Assembly: GCA_028291945.1 (NCBI GenBank)
Contig: JAQGNH010000019.1
Location: forward strand, 1-44,566
Length of the DNA stretch: 44,566 nucleotides
Origin: Betaproteobacteria bacterium
GTDB lineage: Bacteria > Pseudomonadota > Gammaproteobacteria > Burkholderiales > SG8-41
Reading direction: 5' to 3'
Positions 2,414-34,195 of the stretch are shown piece after piece. Within the stretch, counting starts at the first letter, position 1, and each line of letters begins with the position of its first letter. The position numbers and the translations under genes were made by a program. The notes under the pieces were generated by a model. That model saw only the letters and a list, made by a program, of their open reading frames with translations, was not told the DNA's origin and did no database searches.

Positions 2414-3346
2414 TCAGCTCGACAGTCCGTCCCCGATTTCGACGTTCTCGGGCTTCAGTTCCATGCCCGACGCTTTCGCCTGGAGCAGGAGCAGCGTGGA
2501 GAAATCCTGGTCGGTAAAGCCATGACCGATCAACGTCTGAACAATGTCGCGCGTGAGTGAGGTCAACGGCATGGGCACTCCATACGTCTTGCCTGCGTTC
2601 AAGCCGAGGTCGATGTCCTTGCGCAGGAGCTCCGGTGTGAACGTGACGTGAAAATCGAGATTGGAAAGTGCGGGCGTCTTGTAGCGCGTAAACATCGAGC
2701 CCATGACGCTCTTGTTGAGGAAATCGAGAAAGGCATGCCGCTTCATGCCGGCTTTCTCGGCGAGTATCGTGATCTCGCATAGATTCTGAATGACGACACC
2801 CAGCATCACGTTGTGGCAGATCTTGGCGATACGCGAGAGCTCACCATCACCTACATAGGAAACGCCCTGGCCGATCGCCGAAAGATACGGCGCGACCGCA
2901 TCAAAGGCATCCTGAGGTCCTGAGGCGACGACGGTGAGCTTTCCAGCCTTGATGACTTTTGCATTTCCCGAAACGGGCGCAGCGAGGAACTTGACGTTGT
3001 GCTTGGCGAGCTTCTCGCGAATTTCCGCCGATTCCTCGAGCGAGATCGAAGTGCTGTCGACGACGATCTTCGGCGCCTTGCCTTTGGCCATGACGCCGTT
3101 TGCGCCGAACAGAACTTCCTTCACGTCCTTTCCTGTCGAGACCATCGTGAACACGATGTCGCATTCACTGAGATCGGCGAGCGCGCTCGCCACCTTCGCG
3201 CCGGACTTGGCAAGCGGCTCCGCTTTCGCGCGCGTGCGGTTCCATACCGAGATATCGCAGCCCGATTTCGCGAGGCGCTCCGCCATTGCATAGCCCATGC
3301 GGCCGATTCCGATCCAGCCGAGCTTGTGCTGCTTCATGTTCGACAT
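2414..3346 (-). CDS. NAD(P)-dependent beta-hydroxyacid dehydrogenase (3-hydroxyisobutyrate dehydrogenase family)
   Basis: A 310-residue member of the 3-hydroxyisobutyrate / 6-phosphogluconate dehydrogenase superfamily, which oxidises beta-hydroxyacids to semialdehydes or reduces the reverse way. The N-terminal Rossmann motif is GWIGIGRMGYAMAERL. The substrate-binding block is VDSTSISLEES and AAPVSGNAKVIKAGKLT, where the usual second Gly of SGG is Asn. The catalytic Lys lies in RIAKICHN (about residue 180). The C-terminal all-helical domain is complete. TGGAGA precedes the ATG by about ten bases, and the gene starts 15 bases after the dioxygenase stop, so co-transcription is likely. The exact substrate is unknown. 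Confidence 0.92.
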   Translation of the reverse strand: MSNMKQHKLGWIGIGRMGYAMAERLAKSGCDISVWNRTRAKAEPLAKSGAKVASALADLSECDIVFTMVSTGKDVKEVLFGANGVMAKGKAPKIVVDSTSISLEESAEIREKLAKHNVKFLAAPVSGNAKVIKAGKLTVVASGPQDAFDAVAPYLSAIGQGVSYVGDGELSRIAKICHNVMLGVVIQNLCEITILAEKAGMKRHAFLDFLNKSVMGSMFTRYKTPALSNLDFHVTFTPELLRKDIDLGLNAGKTYGVPMPLTSLTRDIVQTLIGHGFTDQDFSTLLLLQAKASGMELKPENVEIGDGLSS

Positions 3347-3361
3347 TGCTGTGTTCTCCAG

Positions 3362-4297
3362 TTACGCGAGCGCGGCGCGGGGATGTCGCCCGCTTGTAAC
3401 CGCCTCGGGTTTATTGAATGGCTTCGTTCCTTTTATCACCAGCCGATGCAGGACTCGGCGCGCCTTCGGATCGAACGGTTCGCGCCGGTGCATCACGCAC
3501 CGGTTGTCCCACATGAGCACATCACCCGGCTGCCAGTCGTGAAACCAGGCCAGCCCGGCTTGTGTCGCGTGCGTCCAGACGGTGTCGAGCAGCGCTTCCG
3601 ATTCTTCGAGCTGTAATCCGACGAGATAGGACTTGACGCGCCTTCCAAGAAACAGGCAGTTGTGGTGAGTCTCGGGGTGCGTGCGTACTAGCGGGTGCAC
3701 CGCGCCCGGGCTCGTTCGGACATCGGCGTTTTCGGCGTGCGCGAAATTCCGGCGCACATAGCCTGCCGCGTCGATCGTCGCATCGTGCTTCAGCATCAGG
3801 TTCTCGATGCGCGAACGCAGCGCCTCGGGCAGCGTGTCGTACGCGGCATACATATTGTTGAAGCCGGTCCGACCGCCGCTGGGCGGGACGTCAAGCGCAT
3901 ACAGCGTCGTCTGATTCGGCGGCGCTTCGAAGCTCGACATGTCGCTGTGCCACACGAGCTCGCCGTCACCGAGTCCTCCAAGGGCGACGCCGTTTTCGAT
4001 CACGTTCGACACCACCGTAATTTCGGGATGTGCATCCTGCCTTCCGCCCTGCGCGACTTTACCTTCGTTGGCAAGCGGGCTCGGCAAGGGATTCGAATAC
4101 TGGAACTCGCCGAAACGCCTGCCGAACGCGATCAGATCGGCATCGCTGAATCGCTGGCCACGGAACAGTACGACGAGGTGGTCGAGCCACGCCTGGCGAA
4201 TCTCGGCCGCCGTCACGTCGTCGAGCGATCGCAAGTCGCCGCACCAGATCTCTGCCCCGAGCGGGCCGGCGGAAGGCAGCACTTCGATGCGAGCCAC
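3362..4297 (-). CDS. TauD/TfdA-family 2-oxoglutarate-dependent dioxygenase
   Basis: A cytosolic Fe(II)/2-oxoglutarate dioxygenase that hydroxylates its substrate while decarboxylating 2-oxoglutarate. The iron triad is visible: His and Asp in LVWHSDMSS, and the distal His in VLMWDNRCVMHRREPFD. The 2-oxoglutarate-binding Arg is in RRVLHRLVIKG. I place the start at GTG 4297 (VARIEVLPSAGPLGAEI), seven bases after the rhodanese stop. An AAAGG site about ten bases upstream supports it. A TTG at 4330 would add 11 residues and overlap the rhodanese gene. Family members act on taurine, chlorophenoxyacetates, alkyl sulfates and others; the target here is unknown. Confidence 0.9.
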   Translation of the reverse strand: MARIEVLPSAGPLGAEIWCGDLRSLDDVTAAEIRQAWLDHLVVLFRGQRFSDADLIAFGRRFGEFQYSNPLPSPLANEGKVAQGGRQDAHPEITVVSNVIENGVALGGLGDGELVWHSDMSSFEAPPNQTTLYALDVPPSGGRTGFNNMYAAYDTLPEALRSRIENLMLKHDATIDAAGYVRRNFAHAENADVRTSPGAVHPLVRTHPETHHNCLFLGRRVKSYLVGLQLEESEALLDTVWTHATQAGLAWFHDWQPGDVLMWDNRCVMHRREPFDPKARRVLHRLVIKGTKPFNKPEAVTSGRHPRAALA

Positions 4298-27585: not shown

Positions 27586-28155
27586 ATGATCCGCCTTCTA
27601 CTCGCGCTCCTGTCCTCGGCTACTCTGTATCCACACGCTGTTTTCGCGCAGGCGATCGACTATGCGCGCAGCCAGATCACGGTGCTATCACGGCAGATGA
27701 ACGTTCCGGTCGAAGCGCCGTTCAAGAAGTTCACGGCGCAAGTGACCTTCGACGCCAACAAACCAGAAGCGTCGTCCGCACGCGTCGAGATCGAACTTAA
27801 CAGCTTCGACATCGGCGATGCGGAAACGAATGACAATGTCAAAGACAAAAACTGGTTCGACACGAAGACCTATCCGATCGCGCGCTTCGCGTCGTCGGCG
27901 ATTCGCTCGCTGGGAGGCGGCCGATTTGAAGTGCGCGGACCGCTCATGCTCAAAGGCAAGACGATGGATGTCGCGGCCCCTTTCAGTGTTAAAGCAAGCG
28001 GCGCGGACAGAATTTTTGAAGGCGCATTTCCAATACGCCGCCTGCAGTTCAACGTCGGAGATGGCGTGTGGCGGGATACGAGCGTGGTCGCGGATGAAGT
28101 GCAGATCAAATTCAGCCTTTACCAAGTGGCGTCAAAACCGGCCGCCGCAAAATAA
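27586..28155 (+). CDS. YceI-family periplasmic lipid-binding protein 1
   Basis: A 189-residue exported protein of the YceI family, lipocalin-like barrels that bind isoprenoid chains. The signal peptide is MIRLLLALLSSATLYPHAVFA. The family core is visible (FTAQVTFDANKPEASSARVE, FDTKTYPIARFAS, RGPLMLKGKT, VADEVQIKFSLYQV). It departs from the family at YARSQITVLSRQMNVPVEAP, where the usual HSxIxFxVxH pattern is weaker. Three bases separate it from the cytochrome gene, so both are co-transcribed. The partner cytochrome suggests a role with quinone-like lipids, which is inference. Confidence 0.88.
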   Translation: MIRLLLALLSSATLYPHAVFAQAIDYARSQITVLSRQMNVPVEAPFKKFTAQVTFDANKPEASSARVEIELNSFDIGDAETNDNVKDKNWFDTKTYPIARFASSAIRSLGGGRFEVRGPLMLKGKTMDVAAPFSVKASGADRIFEGAFPIRRLQFNVGDGVWRDTSVVADEVQIKFSLYQVASKPAAAK

Positions 28156-28182: not shown

Positions 28183-28752
28183 ATGAGGTCACGCTTTGTG
28201 TGTCTTTCCGCTCTAGTCCTGTCTTTGCCTACAATGGCCGCGCAGGACGTCTTTATCAATGATCCGGCACATACCGCGGCTTCCTTCGAAGTGGGGCACC
28301 AAGGCGTTTCGTGGATCAGGGGCCGGTTCAATGCGGTCGAGTCGAAAATAGTTCTGGATCGGACCGCGAAACAGGGCACCATCGATGCTGTTATCAAGAC
28401 CGCTTCGTTCGATACGGGCCACGAGGCTCGCGACCGCATCGTTCGCGGCGAGGACTATCTCAACGTCGAGAAATTTCCAACGATGACATTCAAATCGACC
28501 AAGCTCAAGTTCGACGGGGACAATCTCGTCGGCGCAGACGGCGAGCTGACGCTGGCCGGCGTGACCAGACCCGTGTTGGTCGACATCCCGTTTTTCAAGT
28601 GCGTCTCCAATCCGGCGCGGAAGACAGAACAGTGTGGGGCCGACGTTCGAACGATGATCAAGCGGTCGGATTTTGGCGTCAAAAGAGGCGCCACGACACC
28701 CATGGCCGACGAAGTGAAAATCGCAATTCAGATCGAGGCCTACAAGCAGTAG
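28183..28752 (+). CDS. YceI-family periplasmic lipid-binding protein 2
   Basis: A 189-residue second YceI protein, closer to the family norm. The signal peptide is MRSRFVCLSALVLSLPTMA, followed by DPAHTAASFEVGHQGVSWI, RGEDYLNVEKFPTMTFKST, GADGELTLAGVTRPV and the C-terminal DEVKIAIQIEAYKQ. A Cys pair (FFKCVSNPARKTEQC) could form a disulfide. AGGAGAT lies before the ATG at good spacing. It is 27 bases after YceI protein 1 and ends the b561-YceI-YceI operon. The two YceI copies are diverged, so they probably bind different lipids. Confidence 0.92.
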   Translation: MRSRFVCLSALVLSLPTMAAQDVFINDPAHTAASFEVGHQGVSWIRGRFNAVESKIVLDRTAKQGTIDAVIKTASFDTGHEARDRIVRGEDYLNVEKFPTMTFKSTKLKFDGDNLVGADGELTLAGVTRPVLVDIPFFKCVSNPARKTEQCGADVRTMIKRSDFGVKRGATTPMADEVKIAIQIEAYKQ

Positions 28753-28777: not shown

Positions 28778-30910
28778 TCAGGCCGTTTTCGGCGCCATCC
28801 GGTTGAGCGTCACGTAATCAGTCTTGCCGCTGCCCAGTAGCGGCAGTGACGCGACCTTGACGATGCGGCGAGCGACGGCAAGATCCTGTGCGCCGATCTG
28901 CCGCGCCGTTCGTACGAGCATCATGCGGTCGAGGCGCGCGTCGGTCGTGAAGAGGATCGTGCTCTCGCCACTGCCGCTGATCTGCTCGACCGTCGCCGCA
29001 TGCTTGTGCGCCGACGACGCGGCATACGCAATCCGTTCGACGAGCTCGAGCGAAACCATTTCACCTGCGATCTTCGCGAAGCGCTTTACACGGCCGAGTA
29101 TGGTCACGTACCCGTCGTCGTCGATCTCCACCACATCACCGGTGTTGTACCAGCCGAGCCCCACTTCGGAGCGCGGCGGGTGGAGCACAGCGGGCTGCTC
29201 GTAAAAATAGTAACCGGTCATCAGATGCGCACTGCGCACGTGCAATGCGCCGCCACGCGCGATGCCCGGGACCGTGACGACCCGCGTCTCTATGCCTGGA
29301 AGCAGACGGCCGACGGTGCCTTCTCTGTAATTGAGCGGCGTGTTGAGCGATAGCGTCGGGCCGCATTCCGTCGCTCCGTATCCTTCCATAATGCGCAAGC
29401 CAAACTTCGTCTGCCATAACTGCTCAACTTCGGGACTGAGCTTCTCGCCTCCCGATACGACGACGCGGACACGGTAGAAATCGTAGGGGTGTGCGTGGCG
29501 CCCATAGTGTCCGAGGAACGTGCTCGTGCCAAACATATAAGTGCAGTCCCGCGTATAGGCAAATTCGGGTATCACGCGGTAGTGCAGCGGCGTCGTGTAC
29601 AGGAACAGCGGCGTCCCCGCCAGTATCGGCATGAGCGTGCACGCCGTGAGCCCGTACGTGTGGTACATCGGCAGCGCGTTCAGATACTTGTCGTTGGGGC
29701 CGAAATCGATTACGGCGCGCATCTGCGCCATGTTTGCGAGCATGGCATCGTGAGAAATTGCGACGCCTTTCGAGCGCGCTTCCGAGCCTGAGGTGAAGAG
29801 CACGACGGCAACCGCACTGGGGTCCTGCCCAGGCACTGCTGCTCGTGGCCTGAGCAGCGCCCCGGCTATCCACAGTTTGTCGCGGCGCTTCAGGTTGGCT
29901 CGCAAGTCTTCAAGGTAGACCAAGTCTATGCCGTGCAGGGCTCGCGCAGTCGCTTCAAGCCGGGCGGCCTGCACAAAGCGGCGCGACGTAATCACGGTCT
30001 TGATGCCCGCGGCGGTACAGGCTGCGCTCATCGCTTCGGGTCCCGCGCTGTAGTTCAGCATCGCAGCCACGCGGCGCCTCGCGGTCAATGCGAACACCAG
30101 GGCGACGGTCGTCGACAGATTCGGCAGCATCACCCCGACCGTCTCTCCCTCGGTGCTCACGCGAGAGATGAGCCTCGCAAGCGCAAGCGTGGTCTTCAGC
30201 AGCGCGCCGTAGGTTTCCGGCTGTTGGCGCACGTCTTCGATGATCGTCGTCGATCGTCCGTGCAGCTCTGCCGCTTCGACTAACGCATCGAACAGCGTCT
30301 GCCTGCGCCTTCCATCGAACATCATGCGCTGCATCAGCTTGAGCATCTCATCGGCGAGCGCCCGCCTGCGCTCCCGAATAGGCCGATGCGACACTGGGGG
30401 AACATCTACGGGGGACTGGATAGTCAACACGACACGTGGAAACAGGCGTCGCGGCCACCGTCCCGTTACCCGTGACTGATACGTTTGCAAAGTGCCCGAG
30501 ATGTGCACTGGAACGATTTGCGCATTGGAGCGTGCAGCAATCACACCCGCCGAGTCGTATACCTTCATGATCGTGCCGGTCGTCGAGACACGGCCTTGCG
30601 GGAAAACCGCGACGACCTCGCCTCTTTGGACCTGGCGTATCAACCTTTTCACTGCGAGCGGACGCGCGGGATCGAGCACCGCAAAGCGAAGCGTTCTCCG
30701 AAACAAGCGCACGAGCGGGTGGCGCAAAGTCTCGGGCGTGACAACGACGGTGGCGAGGCCCGGCAGAAAAAGTGCGAGCAGCGCGCCGTCCAACAGGGAA
30801 TCGTGATTCGCAACGACAAGCTTGCGGCCGCCGCGCAGGACCGAGACATCGCCTTTGACCCTGACGCGCAGCAATGCGCCCAATGTCCAGCGCAGAATCG
30901 TGTGTATCAC
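28778..30910 (-). CDS. aas: Bifunctional 2-acyl-GPE acyltransferase / acyl-ACP synthetase (Aas)
   Basis: A 710-residue inner-membrane-associated protein colinear with E. coli Aas, which activates free fatty acids onto ACP and reacylates lysophospholipid. The N-terminal PlsC domain has the HX4D motif in VVANHDSLLDG; the third block reads FPQGRVSTTG, where E. coli has FPEGR. The AMP-binding domain has VVLFTSGSEARSKGVAISH, YHTYGLTACTLMP, EGYGATECGPTLS and GWYNTGDVVEIDDDGYV. It keeps KIAGEMVSLE and ends GSGKTDYVTLNRM. The start is GTG. It is transcribed divergently from the DSF synthase gene, which suggests a link through fatty acyl-ACP metabolism. Confidence 0.92.
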   Translation of the reverse strand: MIHTILRWTLGALLRVRVKGDVSVLRGGRKLVVANHDSLLDGALLALFLPGLATVVVTPETLRHPLVRLFRRTLRFAVLDPARPLAVKRLIRQVQRGEVVAVFPQGRVSTTGTIMKVYDSAGVIAARSNAQIVPVHISGTLQTYQSRVTGRWPRRLFPRVVLTIQSPVDVPPVSHRPIRERRRALADEMLKLMQRMMFDGRRRQTLFDALVEAAELHGRSTTIIEDVRQQPETYGALLKTTLALARLISRVSTEGETVGVMLPNLSTTVALVFALTARRRVAAMLNYSAGPEAMSAACTAAGIKTVITSRRFVQAARLEATARALHGIDLVYLEDLRANLKRRDKLWIAGALLRPRAAVPGQDPSAVAVVLFTSGSEARSKGVAISHDAMLANMAQMRAVIDFGPNDKYLNALPMYHTYGLTACTLMPILAGTPLFLYTTPLHYRVIPEFAYTRDCTYMFGTSTFLGHYGRHAHPYDFYRVRVVVSGGEKLSPEVEQLWQTKFGLRIMEGYGATECGPTLSLNTPLNYREGTVGRLLPGIETRVVTVPGIARGGALHVRSAHLMTGYYFYEQPAVLHPPRSEVGLGWYNTGDVVEIDDDGYVTILGRVKRFAKIAGEMVSLELVERIAYAASSAHKHAATVEQISGSGESTILFTTDARLDRMMLVRTARQIGAQDLAVARRIVKVASLPLLGSGKTDYVTLNRMAPKTA

Positions 30911-31097: not shown

Positions 31098-31120
31098 AAA
31101 TCTATCAGTTTGTTAGATTT
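31098..31120 (+). other. AT-rich hairpin with T-run upstream of rpfF
   Basis: AAATCTA (31098-31104) and TAGATTT (31114-31120) form a perfect 7-bp stem with a nine-base loop, followed by GCTTTTT. It resembles a weak intrinsic terminator on the plus strand. It lies upstream of the predicted rpfF promoter, so it could end stray transcription entering the region. Confidence 0.4.
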
Positions 31121-31148
31121 GCTTTTTAATGACGGCTGCATTGTAATC

Positions 31149-31199: not shown

Positions 31200-32129
31200 A
31201 TGGAAATGCACATCCCCGCCGCCATTCTCGAAGCCCGCCGGAATCCGCCCAGCGCTTCCGTTGCCCAAGGGCTCGAGTTCACTTTCTCGCCGCAACTTAC
31301 CGCGAGCTTCGACAAAAACACCCGGGCGATGTGGTCACGCTGGACCGCGCGCCCTCGCGCCTGTTTCAACCCGAAGCTGCTCGCCGAGATCAGGACATAC
31401 TATGAGTTCCTGGCCCAGACTGACGGCCGGCTGGAATGCGCAGGGGAGGAGCACCCGATCGAATACGTGGTTCTCGCCTCCGGTATGCCCGGCGTGTTCA
31501 ATCTCGGCGGGGACCTGGAACTGTTCAAACAGCTGATTGCGTCGCAGGATCGTGCAGGACTGCAACGCTACGGACGCGCCTGCATCGACGTGCTGTACCG
31601 CAACTATGTTGCTCATGATCTCCGCGGTGTCACCACGGTGTCGCTCGTACAGGGCGAATGCCTCGGGGGCGGTTTCGAAGCGGCGCTCTCGTCAGACGTC
31701 ATCGTGGCCGAAAAAGGTTCACGCTTTGGGTTTCCGGAAATCCTTTTCAACCTCTTCCCCGGGATGGGGGCCTACTCGTTTCTCGATCGCAAAATCGGAC
31801 AAAAAGGCGCTGAGGCACTGATCACCAGTGGAAAAATCTATACCGCCGACGAAATGCAGGCGCTCGGCGTCGTGGACGTCGTGGCCGAAGACGGGTGTGG
31901 CGAACCCGAAGTCGACGCGCTGATCAAAAGACGCAGCCGCAGTCGCAACGGTCTGGCAGCGCTGGCCGCCACGCGTAGACGCGTTCATTCCATTACGTTC
32001 GACGAGCTTCTCGACGTGGTCCAGATCTGGGTCGATGCAGCCCTGCGCATCAATGTGCGCGATTTGAAGCTCATGCAGCGGCTGGTCTCACGCCAGAACG
32101 GGATCAAGGAGCCTGAACTGGTGCACTAG
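31200..32129 (+). CDS. rpfF: RpfF-type diffusible signal factor (DSF) synthase
   Basis: A 309-residue crotonase-fold enzyme that makes cis-2-unsaturated fatty acid signals by dehydrating 3-hydroxyacyl-ACP and releasing the free acid. The family-defining block is QGECLGGGFEAALSSDV followed by GFPEILFNLFPGMGAYSFLD. Glu160 and Glu180 are spaced like the catalytic Glu141 and Glu161 of Xanthomonas RpfF. The oxyanion region is ASGMPGVFNLGGDLELF. I start at ATG 31200, with GGGAGA about eight bases upstream; the open frame extends to 31110 without support. A GGDEF-EAL gene follows by 119 bases and aas is divergent. The alternative, an ordinary enoyl-CoA hydratase, is unlikely given the FPGMGAYS block. 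Confidence 0.92.
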   Translation: MEMHIPAAILEARRNPPSASVAQGLEFTFSPQLTASFDKNTRAMWSRWTARPRACFNPKLLAEIRTYYEFLAQTDGRLECAGEEHPIEYVVLASGMPGVFNLGGDLELFKQLIASQDRAGLQRYGRACIDVLYRNYVAHDLRGVTTVSLVQGECLGGGFEAALSSDVIVAEKGSRFGFPEILFNLFPGMGAYSFLDRKIGQKGAEALITSGKIYTADEMQALGVVDVVAEDGCGEPEVDALIKRRSRSRNGLAALAATRRRVHSITFDELLDVVQIWVDAALRINVRDLKLMQRLVSRQNGIKEPELVH

Positions 32130-32147
32130 GCACCGCAAATCCTAAGC

Positions 32148-32165
32148 GGCGCGTCTTCGCGCGCC
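32148..32165 (+). other. Short GC hairpin between rpfF and the GGDEF-EAL gene
   Basis: GGCGCG (32148-32153) pairs with CGCGCC (32160-32165) around the loop TCTTCG. No T-run follows, so it is not a clear terminator; it may reduce read-through or protect the upstream mRNA. Confidence 0.3.
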
Positions 32166-32248
32166 AGCGGGCACTTTGGTAAACTCAGCCGAAAAGACCG
32201 GTTCCGTAATCAGCGGAGGCTGGCGCGCTGTATGCCCGGGAGGCACCA

Positions 32249-34195
32249 TTGTCCGCGTCAGATATGGAATACAGCATACAAGAAGTCTCGGAGTTGCTGG
32301 GCATCCCGATCCAGAAGCTGCGCCGCTGGGACGTGCAAGGCGTGCTGGTCGCGCTCAGGACGGCGGGCGGACATCGACGCTATGCAAAGGAGCTGATCGA
32401 CCGGCTCGCGGCATCGGGGCTGAATGCGACCGCTGACAAGGCCTCGCAGGAGCTCGCAACCGTCAAGCGCGCGCTTGCCGAAAAACGCCGCATCATTCAA
32501 TTGCTTCTGGAAAGCGAGAACCGTTATCGCGATCTCGTCGAAACATCCCACGATCTGATCTGGGCTACAGACGCCCAGGGCCGCTTCACCTACCTCAATA
32601 CCGCCTCGAACGATATCTTCGGTCTTGCACCGAAGGACCTGATGGGTCGCTGCTTCTTCGATTTCGAAGCGGGCGCCGCTCACATCTCGAACCGTCGTTT
32701 TCTCGCCCTCCTGAGGAAGAACGGCGAAGTAAAAAGCTATGCCACGCACGTTCTGACAGCCGGACGCGAAGACCGCTGGATCGGTATCAATGCGCGCCTG
32801 ACTCACGACGACAATGGCGAGGTTCTGGGCATTCGCGGCACCGCCCGCGACATCACCGAGCAGCACCTCGCGTCCCGACGGATCGAGCATCTCGCGCTGC
32901 ACGATTCACTCACGGACCTGCCGAACCGGCACAGCTTGCAAAGCCGCATCGAGGCGGCACTGGGGGAGAGCCGCGTGGGCGCGCTGCTCTTCATCGACAT
33001 CGATCACTTCAAATACGTCAACGACAACTTCGGCCACCGCTCTGGTGACCAGCTCATCATCGGCATCGGCAGCGTGCTGCGCGATGTGATGCGGGATTGC
33101 GGTGGAGAGCTGCACCGGTTGGGCGGAGACGAGTTCGCCATCCATTTGCCGGAGGCGCTGCGCAAGCAGGCGAGCGATACCGCGGAGAGCGCACTCGATG
33201 CGATCCGGCACTATCGTTTTCCAGCCACCGAACAGCGGATTATCTCGAACCTGTCAGTATCGGTGGGTATCGCCCTCTATCCGTTTGACGGCGCCGACGT
33301 TCCCAGCCTTTTTTCGAACGTGGACATTGCGATGTACCAGGCGAAAGAGCTTGGCCGCAATCGCCACGTCGTGTTCGATCAGGCGTCGGACAATCTGCGC
33401 AGCACGCACAAACGCATACATTGGGCGAAGCGGCTGCGCGATGCGCTCGATGAGGACCGGTTCTGTCTCTTTGCTCAGCCGGTCGTGCGGCTTCGCGACC
33501 AGAAGGCGGTTCACCACGAGATCCTCGTGCGTCTGCGCGACGACTCAGGCGGCTACATCCTGCCTTCGACCTTCATCGAGCTCGCAGAATCACTCTCACT
33601 CGTGCAGGAGATCGATCTGCTGGTGGTGGAGAAGCTCCTCGCCTTCATGCGTAAGCACAATCAGGTGGGCAAGAAGCTGCGCTATTTCGTGAATCTGTCT
33701 CGCGTTTCGATATCGGATGAACGCTGGATCAAGCGTTTCATGTCGCTGCTCAAGGCAAGCGCAACCGATCCGAGCCAGCTCGTATTCGAAATCACCGAGA
33801 CGGCCGCGATGACCGAAGTCGACGTCACCATGACGTTCATCAGCCGCCTCAAGGACATGGGTTGCCGGTTCGCGCTTGACGATTTCGGAGCGGGCTTCAG
33901 CTCGTTTTACTATCTGAAGCGCTTCGAAGTCGACTATCTCAAGATCGACGGCGGATTCATACGCGATCTCGCGACCGACGAAGGTAGCCGCCTTTTCGTG
34001 CGCGCGCTAAACGATGTCGCGCGTGGGCTCAACAAGCAGGTCGTCGCCGAGTGGGTGGAATCGCCCGAAGTGCTAAAGCTGCTCGTCGAAATGGGGGCGC
34101 AGTTCGGGCAGGGCTATCTGTTTCGTAGACCGATGCCGCTCGAAGAGACGTTGCGCCTTCCGGCAACGCGGATGATGCGGGCGAAGGCGAGCTGA
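32249..34195 (+). CDS. MerR-type HTH / PAS / GGDEF / EAL protein, RpfR-like c-di-GMP enzyme
   Basis: A 648-residue multidomain protein. Residues 6-55 are a MerR-type helix-turn-helix (YSIQEVSELLGIPIQKLRRW, then RTAGGHRRYAKELIDRL). Residues 60-90 look like a coiled coil, and 90-205 are a PAS domain (NRYRDLVETSHDLIWATDAQ). GGDEF is intact at 292-296, with FIDIDHFKYVNDNFGH before it; the RxxD inhibitory site is absent. The EAL domain has EIL at 424-426, FVNLS, FEITETAAM, DDFG at 544-547, YLKIDG and AEWVE at 600-604, so it is probably an active phosphodiesterase. Burkholderia RpfR binds DSF with PAS-GGDEF-EAL but has no MerR domain; here DNA binding replaces or adds to its N-terminal module. The TTG start has GGGAGG five to six bases upstream; ATG 32264 is further away. 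Confidence 0.93.
   Translation: MSASDMEYSIQEVSELLGIPIQKLRRWDVQGVLVALRTAGGHRRYAKELIDRLAASGLNATADKASQELATVKRALAEKRRIIQLLLESENRYRDLVETSHDLIWATDAQGRFTYLNTASNDIFGLAPKDLMGRCFFDFEAGAAHISNRRFLALLRKNGEVKSYATHVLTAGREDRWIGINARLTHDDNGEVLGIRGTARDITEQHLASRRIEHLALHDSLTDLPNRHSLQSRIEAALGESRVGALLFIDIDHFKYVNDNFGHRSGDQLIIGIGSVLRDVMRDCGGELHRLGGDEFAIHLPEALRKQASDTAESALDAIRHYRFPATEQRIISNLSVSVGIALYPFDGADVPSLFSNVDIAMYQAKELGRNRHVVFDQASDNLRSTHKRIHWAKRLRDALDEDRFCLFAQPVVRLRDQKAVHHEILVRLRDDSGGYILPSTFIELAESLSLVQEIDLLVVEKLLAFMRKHNQVGKKLRYFVNLSRVSISDERWIKRFMSLLKASATDPSQLVFEITETAAMTEVDVTMTFISRLKDMGCRFALDDFGAGFSSFYYLKRFEVDYLKIDGGFIRDLATDEGSRLFVRALNDVARGLNKQVVAEWVESPEVLKLLVEMGAQFGQGYLFRRPMPLEETLRLPATRMMRAKAS

Follow-up and report, generated by a model that had tools for sequence, protein, structure and literature searches.

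A DSF-type synthase gene paired with a gene for a MerR-PAS-GGDEF-EAL protein: a candidate one-component regulator of a DSF/c-di-GMP circuit in Burkholderiales

Introduction

Which protein would read the product of a synthase of the diffusible signal factor (DSF) type when its gene is followed by one for a protein that joins a MerR helix-turn-helix (HTH) to PAS, GGDEF and EAL domains? The question is raised by a 44,566-nucleotide (nt) stretch of DNA (hereafter the window) that comprises positions 1 to 44,566 of contig JAQGNH010000019.1 (C271 in our numbering) in the 7.1-Mb draft genome GCA_028291945.1 of a betaproteobacterium of the order Burkholderiales. A first, sequence-only reading had proposed a one-protein design, in which a single chain senses a fatty-acid signal through its PAS domain, changes the level of cyclic di-GMP (c-di-GMP) and controls a promoter itself. 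Papers are cited below by PMC number, from excerpts of their text; in one of them, little is said to be known of signal transduction downstream of RpfFR (PMC9684580).

Comparison of this locus with its relatives makes it probable that the protein acts as a one-component transcription factor in a DSF/c-di-GMP circuit. Its two central predictions differ in strength: the protein very likely binds a 23-base-pair (bp) palindrome in front of the synthase gene, and the chances that its PAS domain senses the synthase product are evenly balanced.

Results

A presumed DSF synthase gene precedes a gene for a MerR-PAS-GGDEF-EAL protein

31200..32129, + strand: rpfF-type crotonase gene (presumed DSF synthase), 309 amino acids, ATG to stop
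32249..34195, + strand: gene for the MerR-coiled coil-PAS-GGDEF-EAL protein (hereafter merR), 648 amino acids, TTG start with an ATG in frame at 32264
32270..32410, + strand: MerR winged HTH, residues 8-54
32432..32542, + strand: long helix (coiled-coil linker), residues 62-98, from the AlphaFold2 model
32540..32866, + strand: PAS domain, residues 98-206 (PF08448, E 4e-16)
32894..33364, + strand: GGDEF domain, residues 216-372, motif intact (PF00990, E 3e-40)
33428..34132, + strand: EAL domain, residues 394-628, catalytic residues intact (PF00563, E 8e-68)

The two genes lie on the same strand, 119 bases apart. Pfam, NCBIfam, alignment and glutamate motifs together suggest that the first encodes a crotonase close to RpfF, presumably a DSF synthase with a predicted cis-2 fatty-acid product. 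It matches Pfam ECH_1 (E 7e-21) and NCBIfam PRK08788/NF006452 (342 bits, cut-off 177), scores below the cut-off of the RpfF equivalog NF053515 (208 bits versus 550 needed), and aligns to Xanthomonas RpfF 3m6m. Both glutamate motifs, whose two conserved glutamates we take to be catalytic, are present; among 69 orthologous RpfF matches, GGGFE occurs in 63 and PExxF in 62, some of the remaining ones being partial. The listed open reading frame (ORF) has an earlier in-frame start, TTG at 31110.

The domain order assigned to the second protein by the sequence-only reading was confirmed, including its N-terminus: rather than scoring as a fold that does not bind DNA, this segment exceeds the cut-offs of both PF00376 (residues 9-45, E 9e-10, 38.6 bits versus 28.2) and PF13411 (MerR_1, E 2e-9), and a profile search matches it to PDB chains of TipA and CarH. 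An AlphaFold2 model of all 648 residues, built from a 40-sequence alignment, places a winged HTH (3-55) and a single 37-residue helix (62-98), as MerR transcription factors require, ahead of PAS, GGDEF and EAL. Such a protein would be expected to form a dimer. The mean predicted local distance difference test score of the model was 84.4, and the predicted template modelling score was so low (0.44) that the arrangement of the domains is not fixed. With the complete model as query, Foldseek placed PA0861 first; with the N-terminal half, generic PAS folds headed the list. No MerR chain was among the 50 matches listed for either query, so that the HTH call is based on the sequence matches and the AlphaFold2 model. 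No RxxD motif, which we take to be the GGDEF inhibitory-site motif, was seen upstream of GGDEF on inspection by eye. The MerR-PAS half is 61-86% identical between the window and 72 other loci, and the arrangement is therefore not a product of chance.

The regulator gene is nearly always found beside rpfF

Whether such homologs are associated with rpfF was surveyed in two overlapping samples. In 74 genomes of the family, searched for rpfF and for the MerR-PAS region, the former was found in 53 and the latter in 50, two of these 50 being partial (G062, at a contig end, and G068, broken). In every one of the 50, rpfF shares its contig and strand with the MerR-PAS gene; the matched parts are separated by 50-444 bases in 47 genomes and by 902, 1342 and 1793 bases in the other three. 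When two peptide patterns were run against 84,980 species genomes, 78 loci were found; 72 (L099-L170) match the MerR-PAS region and the other six match only from residue 57 or later. A whole or partial rpfF lies upstream on the same strand at 70 of the 72, as no more than a piece at a contig end in L163 and a fragment in L166; L167 ends with its contig at residue 144, and L166 and L168 are in broken pieces. Because the loci overlap the family genomes, the counts of 70/72 and 50/50 are not independent.

All 72 loci come from metagenome-assembled or binned genomes, most of them labelled Betaproteobacteria or Burkholderiales, with one 'bacterium' (L110), two Proteobacteria/Pseudomonadota (L160, L164) and three Bordetella parapertussis among the remaining labels. 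The last three (L120, L130, L136) bear an environmental betaproteobacterial locus, and their labels look like misassignments.

Across the order, a MerR-PAS match occurs in 47 of 399 genomes and 17 of 159 genera. In a sample of the class, none of 368 other genomes (three of the same order) has the combination at a profile threshold of E 1e-22. A wider distribution in the class was rejected, since the 30 genomes that match the profile at this threshold beyond the window's do so in the PAS half only, from profile position 56 or later (25 in one, G156); PAS-only matches were likewise dropped in the family, where 58 of 74 genomes match at E 1e-8 and 50 have the ortholog. Two divergent relatives (41% identity), L212 and L213 (G703, G579), have an N-terminal HTH that looks degenerate.

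A conserved palindrome overlaps the putative rpfF promoter

31098..31120, no strand assigned: 23-bp palindrome AAATCTATCAGTTTGTTAGATTT, proposed operator, weight-matrix score 39.4
31119..31124, + strand: putative -35 element TTGCTT, which starts within the right arm of the palindrome
31142..31147, + strand: putative -10 element TGTAAT, part of a conserved TnnAAT-like block at a 17-nt spacing from the -35
28778..30910, - strand: aas-like acyltransferase/acyl-acyl carrier protein synthetase gene (Pfam AMP-binding and Acyltransferase), divergent from rpfF

The region between rpfF and aas, shared by both divergent genes, contains a palindrome of the general form AAATCTATCAnnnTGTTAGATTT that overlaps the -35-like element of rpfF and scores at least 19.9 in 60 of 64 rpfF upstream regions. 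As the weight matrix was trained on those very 64 regions, the window included, it is the specificity of the motif rather than its presence that is informative: of 117 matches scoring over 12 in 1.0 Mb of loci, 116 fall upstream of rpfF (with both strands included, most sites enter this total twice). At the symmetry axis, 79% of arm positions pair, versus 11-38% for shifted axes. The best spacer between -35 and -10 was 17 nt at 52 of 58 sites (search range 15-19 nt, ties broken towards 17), and by this geometry the centre of the palindrome falls near -46. The promoter assignment is based on conservation, because a general consensus scan at stricter settings found no promoter at rpfF. A protein centred near -46 would suit either an activator beside RNA polymerase or a repressor covering the -35; we lean to activation, because the -35 is weakly conserved beyond TTG.

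Copies of the palindrome elsewhere in the genome track merR

In the window genome, a search allowing up to three mismatches recovered the rpfF site and three others (C358:25480 with one mismatch, C468:3244 with two and C491:2306 with three), and a backwards control pattern had no match. Of 16 hand-picked family genomes with merR, 14 have at least one match away from rpfF; the backwards control matched in two (G024, G063). Among family genomes lacking a full merR, the pattern matched in nine of 22 and the backwards control in six (G026, G040, G057, G064, G066, G071).

The absence of merR was checked through the flanking NUDIX gene and verified in 15 genomes: 12 with nudix-nuoN and neither rpfF nor merR (G025, G026, G041, G046, G048, G049, G055, G064, G066, G067, G069, G071), two that keep rpfF (G070, G072), and G036. 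Four of the 15 have a match, which by eye is palindromic in one (G041) and non-palindromic in G046, G048 and G049, with one match each. Neither genome that kept rpfF and lost merR has a site, the rpfF upstream region of G072 lying off its contig, and only the rpfF site remains in G068, where merR is missing most of its HTH and part of its PAS domain. Six genomes were uninformative because the locus is unassembled or cut (G035, G038, G040, G042, G047, G057); nudix was not found in G047 and G057, and the G038 contig stops 244 bases after it.

We also examined the 399 genomes of the order with a second pattern at one mismatch and without symmetry screening of sites. A site more than 3.5 kb from merR was present in 20 of 43 genomes with merR versus 15 of 352 without (Fisher p 5.8e-13, uncorrected for kinship); four genomes with divergent or broken merR were excluded, the 43 include the truncated G062 and the broken G649 and G813, and the backwards control matched in four genomes (G468, G579, G603, G800). 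A search of eight genomes lacking merR revealed no stand-alone regulator with the same HTH at E 1e-3; in four of the eight (G035, G040, G042, G045) the locus is unassembled or cut.

Separately, single unlinked sites persist in two genomes with a broken merR, G649 (L166/L210; CP070775) and G813 (L168/L211). In L168, and in L161, which is related to it, the palindrome is missing upstream of rpfF.

Plain synteny is an improbable explanation of the pair

A nudix gene (identified by Pfam) and then nuo genes lie downstream of merR; the names nuoN and nuoM are our own assignments, made without a family search. Since the nudix and nuo genes are conserved beside the pair in most loci, aas-rpfF-merR-nudix-nuo might be a mere conserved block without functional meaning. 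We regard this as highly improbable. The order aas-rpfF-merR is intact in L160 and L164, where nudix, nuoN and nuoM were not detected; L213 has rpfF, then the regulator and the acyl ligase (rpfF-merR-aas), in a single direction; and 13 genomes lack both rpfF and merR beside an intact nudix-nuoN (the 12 above and G061, which lay outside the pattern search). Mere synteny also leaves the palindromes at unlinked promoters unexplained, and is contradicted by them unless another protein binds these sites. For the same reason, chromosomal neighbourhood was rejected as an explanation of the palindrome itself.

The aas-like product scores 819 bits against NF005959, below the cut-off of 886; in most of the 72 loci, an aas match lies divergent from rpfF. 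Tandem YceI-like genes (27586-28155 and 28183-28752, Pfam) adjoin aas in the window. YceI-family proteins bind isoprenoids or fatty acids, and the two genes possibly mark a link to lipid handling.

Genes for c-di-GMP, secretion and surface functions lie next to the unlinked sites

Sixty stretches around extra sites, a selection of those listed (40 from the family scan and 20 from the order scan), were used to identify the adjacent genes; the site scored over 20 in 59 of them. When ORFs starting within 450 bases downstream of a site were picked mechanically, window-like GGDEF and/or EAL domains were present in 8 of 69 adjacent ORFs versus 4 of the 213 ORFs elsewhere in these stretches (Fisher p 0.0019).

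Four kinds of target recur in different genera or families. A diguanylate cyclase gene is shared by the window genome (L354:1928-3076, on C336, with the palindrome 27 bases upstream) and G007 (59% identical), and a GAF-GGDEF-EAL gene by G007 and G476 (43%), the G007 copy having an N-terminal receiver domain. An ABC exporter is common to G050 and G567, and a GCV_T-domain gene to G007 and G054, with 63% identity in each case. A pilG-like response regulator lies behind the G002 site, with look-alikes (by eye) at the G040 and G041 sites, and a 126-residue protein without a Pfam match behind sites in G012, G018 and G024. Further neighbours encode GspG, a glycosyltransferase of family 4, RHS, Ig-like and DnaJ-domain proteins and a papain-like protease; many have no Pfam match, and two sites adjoin IS200-like transposase ORFs.

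In one lineage the HTH-PAS half is better conserved than the enzyme half

The GGDEF motif of the window protein is intact, as first read, and the earlier statement that most EAL catalytic residues are kept was too modest: all nine that we take to be catalytic are present. The protein has a DNA-binding domain and an EAL domain in one chain, the composition of trigger phosphodiesterases of the PdeL kind; with its phosphodiesterase residues intact, it may also couple this activity to DNA binding as they do.

Among the 65 full-length members, GGDEF and all nine EAL residues are unchanged in 35, one of which is the window protein (GGDEY and SGDEF were scored as intact). The remaining 30 have changes in both domains (19), in EAL only (10) or in GGDEF only (1), so that c-di-GMP turnover cannot be essential in all of them. 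In one 17-member lineage, every member has GEDQF or GEDRF together with E601K, and identity to the window protein is 41-54% over GGDEF and EAL and 61-73% over the HTH-helix and PAS. Five genomes of this lineage (G012, G014, G015, G018 and G024; loci L142, L131, L165, L146 and L133) still bear several palindromes. Because HTH-PAS is conserved where the enzyme half has diverged, and the palindromes are kept, DNA binding and PAS appear from these alignments to be the constant function, with c-di-GMP turnover optional. Degenerate GGDEF and EAL modules of other proteins are known to bind c-di-GMP (PMC5052742), and by analogy the decayed lineage could possibly do so.

These data bear on a second explanation, that the protein is a local c-di-GMP enzyme of the RpfR type answering the RpfF signal, its MerR part serving only to tether or dimerise it while another regulator occupies the palindrome. 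The 35 members with intact signature residues, and a PAS-GGDEF-EAL architecture that is also that of RpfR, PdeR and PA0861, would suit such an enzyme. We nevertheless judge it unlikely, given the better conserved HTH-PAS of the diverged lineage, the changed enzyme residues in 30 of 65 members and the scarcity of the palindrome where merR is lost; in addition, no Pfam DNA-binding domain above cut-off was found in the rpfF or aas products.

Points that weigh against a one-component circuit, and the identity of the ligand

Several observations weigh against the proposal that this protein reads the RpfF signal and acts at the palindrome. At rpfF itself, the palindrome is weak or missing in L162 (score 12.4), L168 (11.8), L153 (11.3) and L161 (-2), and covariation between its arms, once shared composition is allowed for, is weak (375 pairings observed versus a shuffle mean of 362; 1 of 1000 shuffles reached the observed value). 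MerR activators usually bind an operator inside a 19-20-bp spacer between -35 and -10; the palindrome, if it is the operator, lies upstream of and overlaps the -35 of a promoter with a 17-nt spacer. Two family genomes with merR (G033, G060) have no further sites, and neither do 23 of the 43 in the order under the pattern used; 17 of these 23 have no match anywhere, the rpfF upstream region included, which probably reflects a poor fit of the pattern to these genomes. G041, which has lost the rpfF-merR locus and kept one palindromic site, is a true exception. Palindromes without merR also occur in G035, G040 and G042, where nudix is missing or cut at a contig end; with the locus unassembled or truncated in this way, the three were dropped as counter-examples.

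Two further points concern the signal. In L150 and L151, merR orthologs are found with neither rpfF nor the palindrome in the stretch retrieved. The five residues of the RpfR PAS domain reported to contact BDSF, a signal of the DSF type, are S169, N172, Y183, R187 and N202 (PMC6361424); in our reading of the alignment, at about 30% identity and with the register uncertain, one of the five is identical in the window protein (N202, corresponding to N181). Of the one-protein design, then, promoter control has gained comparative support, in that the palindrome tracks merR, and DSF sensing by the PAS domain is still a conjecture.

It is accordingly conceivable, although we find it the less convincing explanation, that the protein is a DNA-binding regulator of rpfF and c-di-GMP genes whose PAS ligand is something other than the RpfF product (redox, flavin or another), rpfF being merely a target. 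The four unmatched contacts speak for this, as do the LOV and flavin PAS domains among the top Foldseek matches of the N-terminal half. Linkage to rpfF in 50/50 genomes and 70/72 loci, and the joint absence of both genes in 13 nudix-nuoN genomes, fit a synthase-receptor pair, to which the two merR orthologs without rpfF are the counter-example.

Other rpfF genes have other partners

Homologs of rpfF were found in 68 of 369 class genomes, the window's included. A tblastn search with the window protein detected no GGDEF-EAL protein within flanks of up to 1.5 kb at the 29 best rpfF loci outside, and a histidine-kinase-like ORF adjoins rpfF in many of 19 class loci whose flanking ORFs were judged by eye. 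In G036 (L207, G036:C258:6500-14500), the nuoN-nudix slot holds a 41%-identical rpfF (3055-3924) without merR, followed by membrane kinase-like and response-regulator-like ORFs (by eye): another partner at the same locus. G021 (L214, C47) and G001 (L215, C95) have, besides the MerR system, a second rpfF that heads an operon with response regulator and kinase genes, in that order; two DSF-type systems may thus coexist there. In a single midpoint-rooted FastTree of 53 RpfF sequences, read for topology without regard to branch supports, the MerR-linked RpfF form one clade beside these second copies and L213. They group apart from B. cenocepacia RpfF, and the RpfR system as a direct ancestor is not supported.

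Comparison with known systems

As in the RpfF-RpfR systems of Burkholderia and Cronobacter, a DSF synthase gene stands beside a PAS-GGDEF-EAL gene (PMC6361424, PMC9684580), and the window protein is 30% identical to B. cenocepacia RpfR over residues 96-632. RpfR begins with an RpfF-interacting FI domain and the window protein with a MerR HTH, as the sequence-only reading had stated: the alignment starts only at residue 96, and with no FI domain detectable in its sequence the protein is not an RpfR. RpfR also works with separate regulators, BerB and GtrR (PMC9684580). Its gene is convergent with rpfF, and the two RpfF proteins are 37% identical. RpfC-RpfG, another partner set of RpfF, is a two-component relay rather than a one-chain regulator; the kinase-like and response-regulator-like ORFs seen by eye next to rpfF in G036, and next to the second copy in G021 and G001, recall this arrangement.

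PdeL of E. coli, by comparison, has a LuxR-type HTH and neither PAS nor GGDEF, and is not known to be linked to a DSF synthase. CarH and TipA share the MerR-family HTH of the window protein; their sensor domains, also separate from the HTH, are of another kind, and they are not known to have a c-di-GMP module. The likeness to PdeL is that of an EAL protein that itself binds DNA (PMC5052742), such binding being predicted for the window protein. E. coli PdeR-MlrA pairs a PAS-GGDEF-EAL protein with a MerR-like transcription factor (PMC5052742) as two proteins, whereas the window has one chain; in a five-sequence comparison, PdeR is 31% identical over residues 96-630 and MlrA 32% over 93 residues (E 4e-4). 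E. coli is without a DSF synthase (PMC6361424). In BluR-BluF, a MerR-like regulator is under the control of a degenerate EAL protein (PMC3509220), again as two proteins, with a BLUF light sensor. Among the matches listed in a search of the open-access literature, judged by title and the start of the abstract, no paper dealt with a MerR-PAS-GGDEF-EAL protein or with rpfF beside one.

Discussion

Comparison across genomes supports the domain order, the pairing with rpfF, the palindrome, its recurrence at other promoters and its scarcity where merR has been lost. In the circuit that we propose, the RpfF product, or a fatty acid akin to it, would enter the PAS domain, and the coiled coil would pass the state of that domain to an HTH dimer. 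This MerR-type dimer would sit on the 23-bp palindrome (AAATCTnnCAnnnTGnnAGATTT) at rpfF and at a limited number of genes for c-di-GMP, secretion and surface functions, where its effect could be activation. The GGDEF-EAL module would couple the state of the regulator to c-di-GMP, bound or cleaved, which may in turn tune DNA binding. In effect, an RpfR-type signal receptor and its transcription factor would be folded into one chain.

RpfF-RpfR, PdeR-MlrA and PdeL were known before; what goes beyond the earlier reading is a palindrome that recurs before c-di-GMP and surface genes, mainly in genomes with merR. With sensor, c-di-GMP module and DNA-binding domain in one chain, and with a predicted operator and targets, a single purified protein would offer a way to study ligand, second messenger and promoter occupancy.

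Together, these results indicate that the neighbour of a DSF-type synthase varies by lineage, being a kinase and response regulator, RpfR, or a MerR-PAS-GGDEF-EAL protein. In genomes with the last of these, we suggest tentatively, and at slightly less than even confidence, that the DSF receptor is itself the transcription factor: one chain would sense both a fatty acid and c-di-GMP, bind promoters, and control its own synthase along with a c-di-GMP and surface regulon, and in at least one lineage the decayed enzyme half would be a presumed receptor while the DNA-binding and PAS domains are kept.

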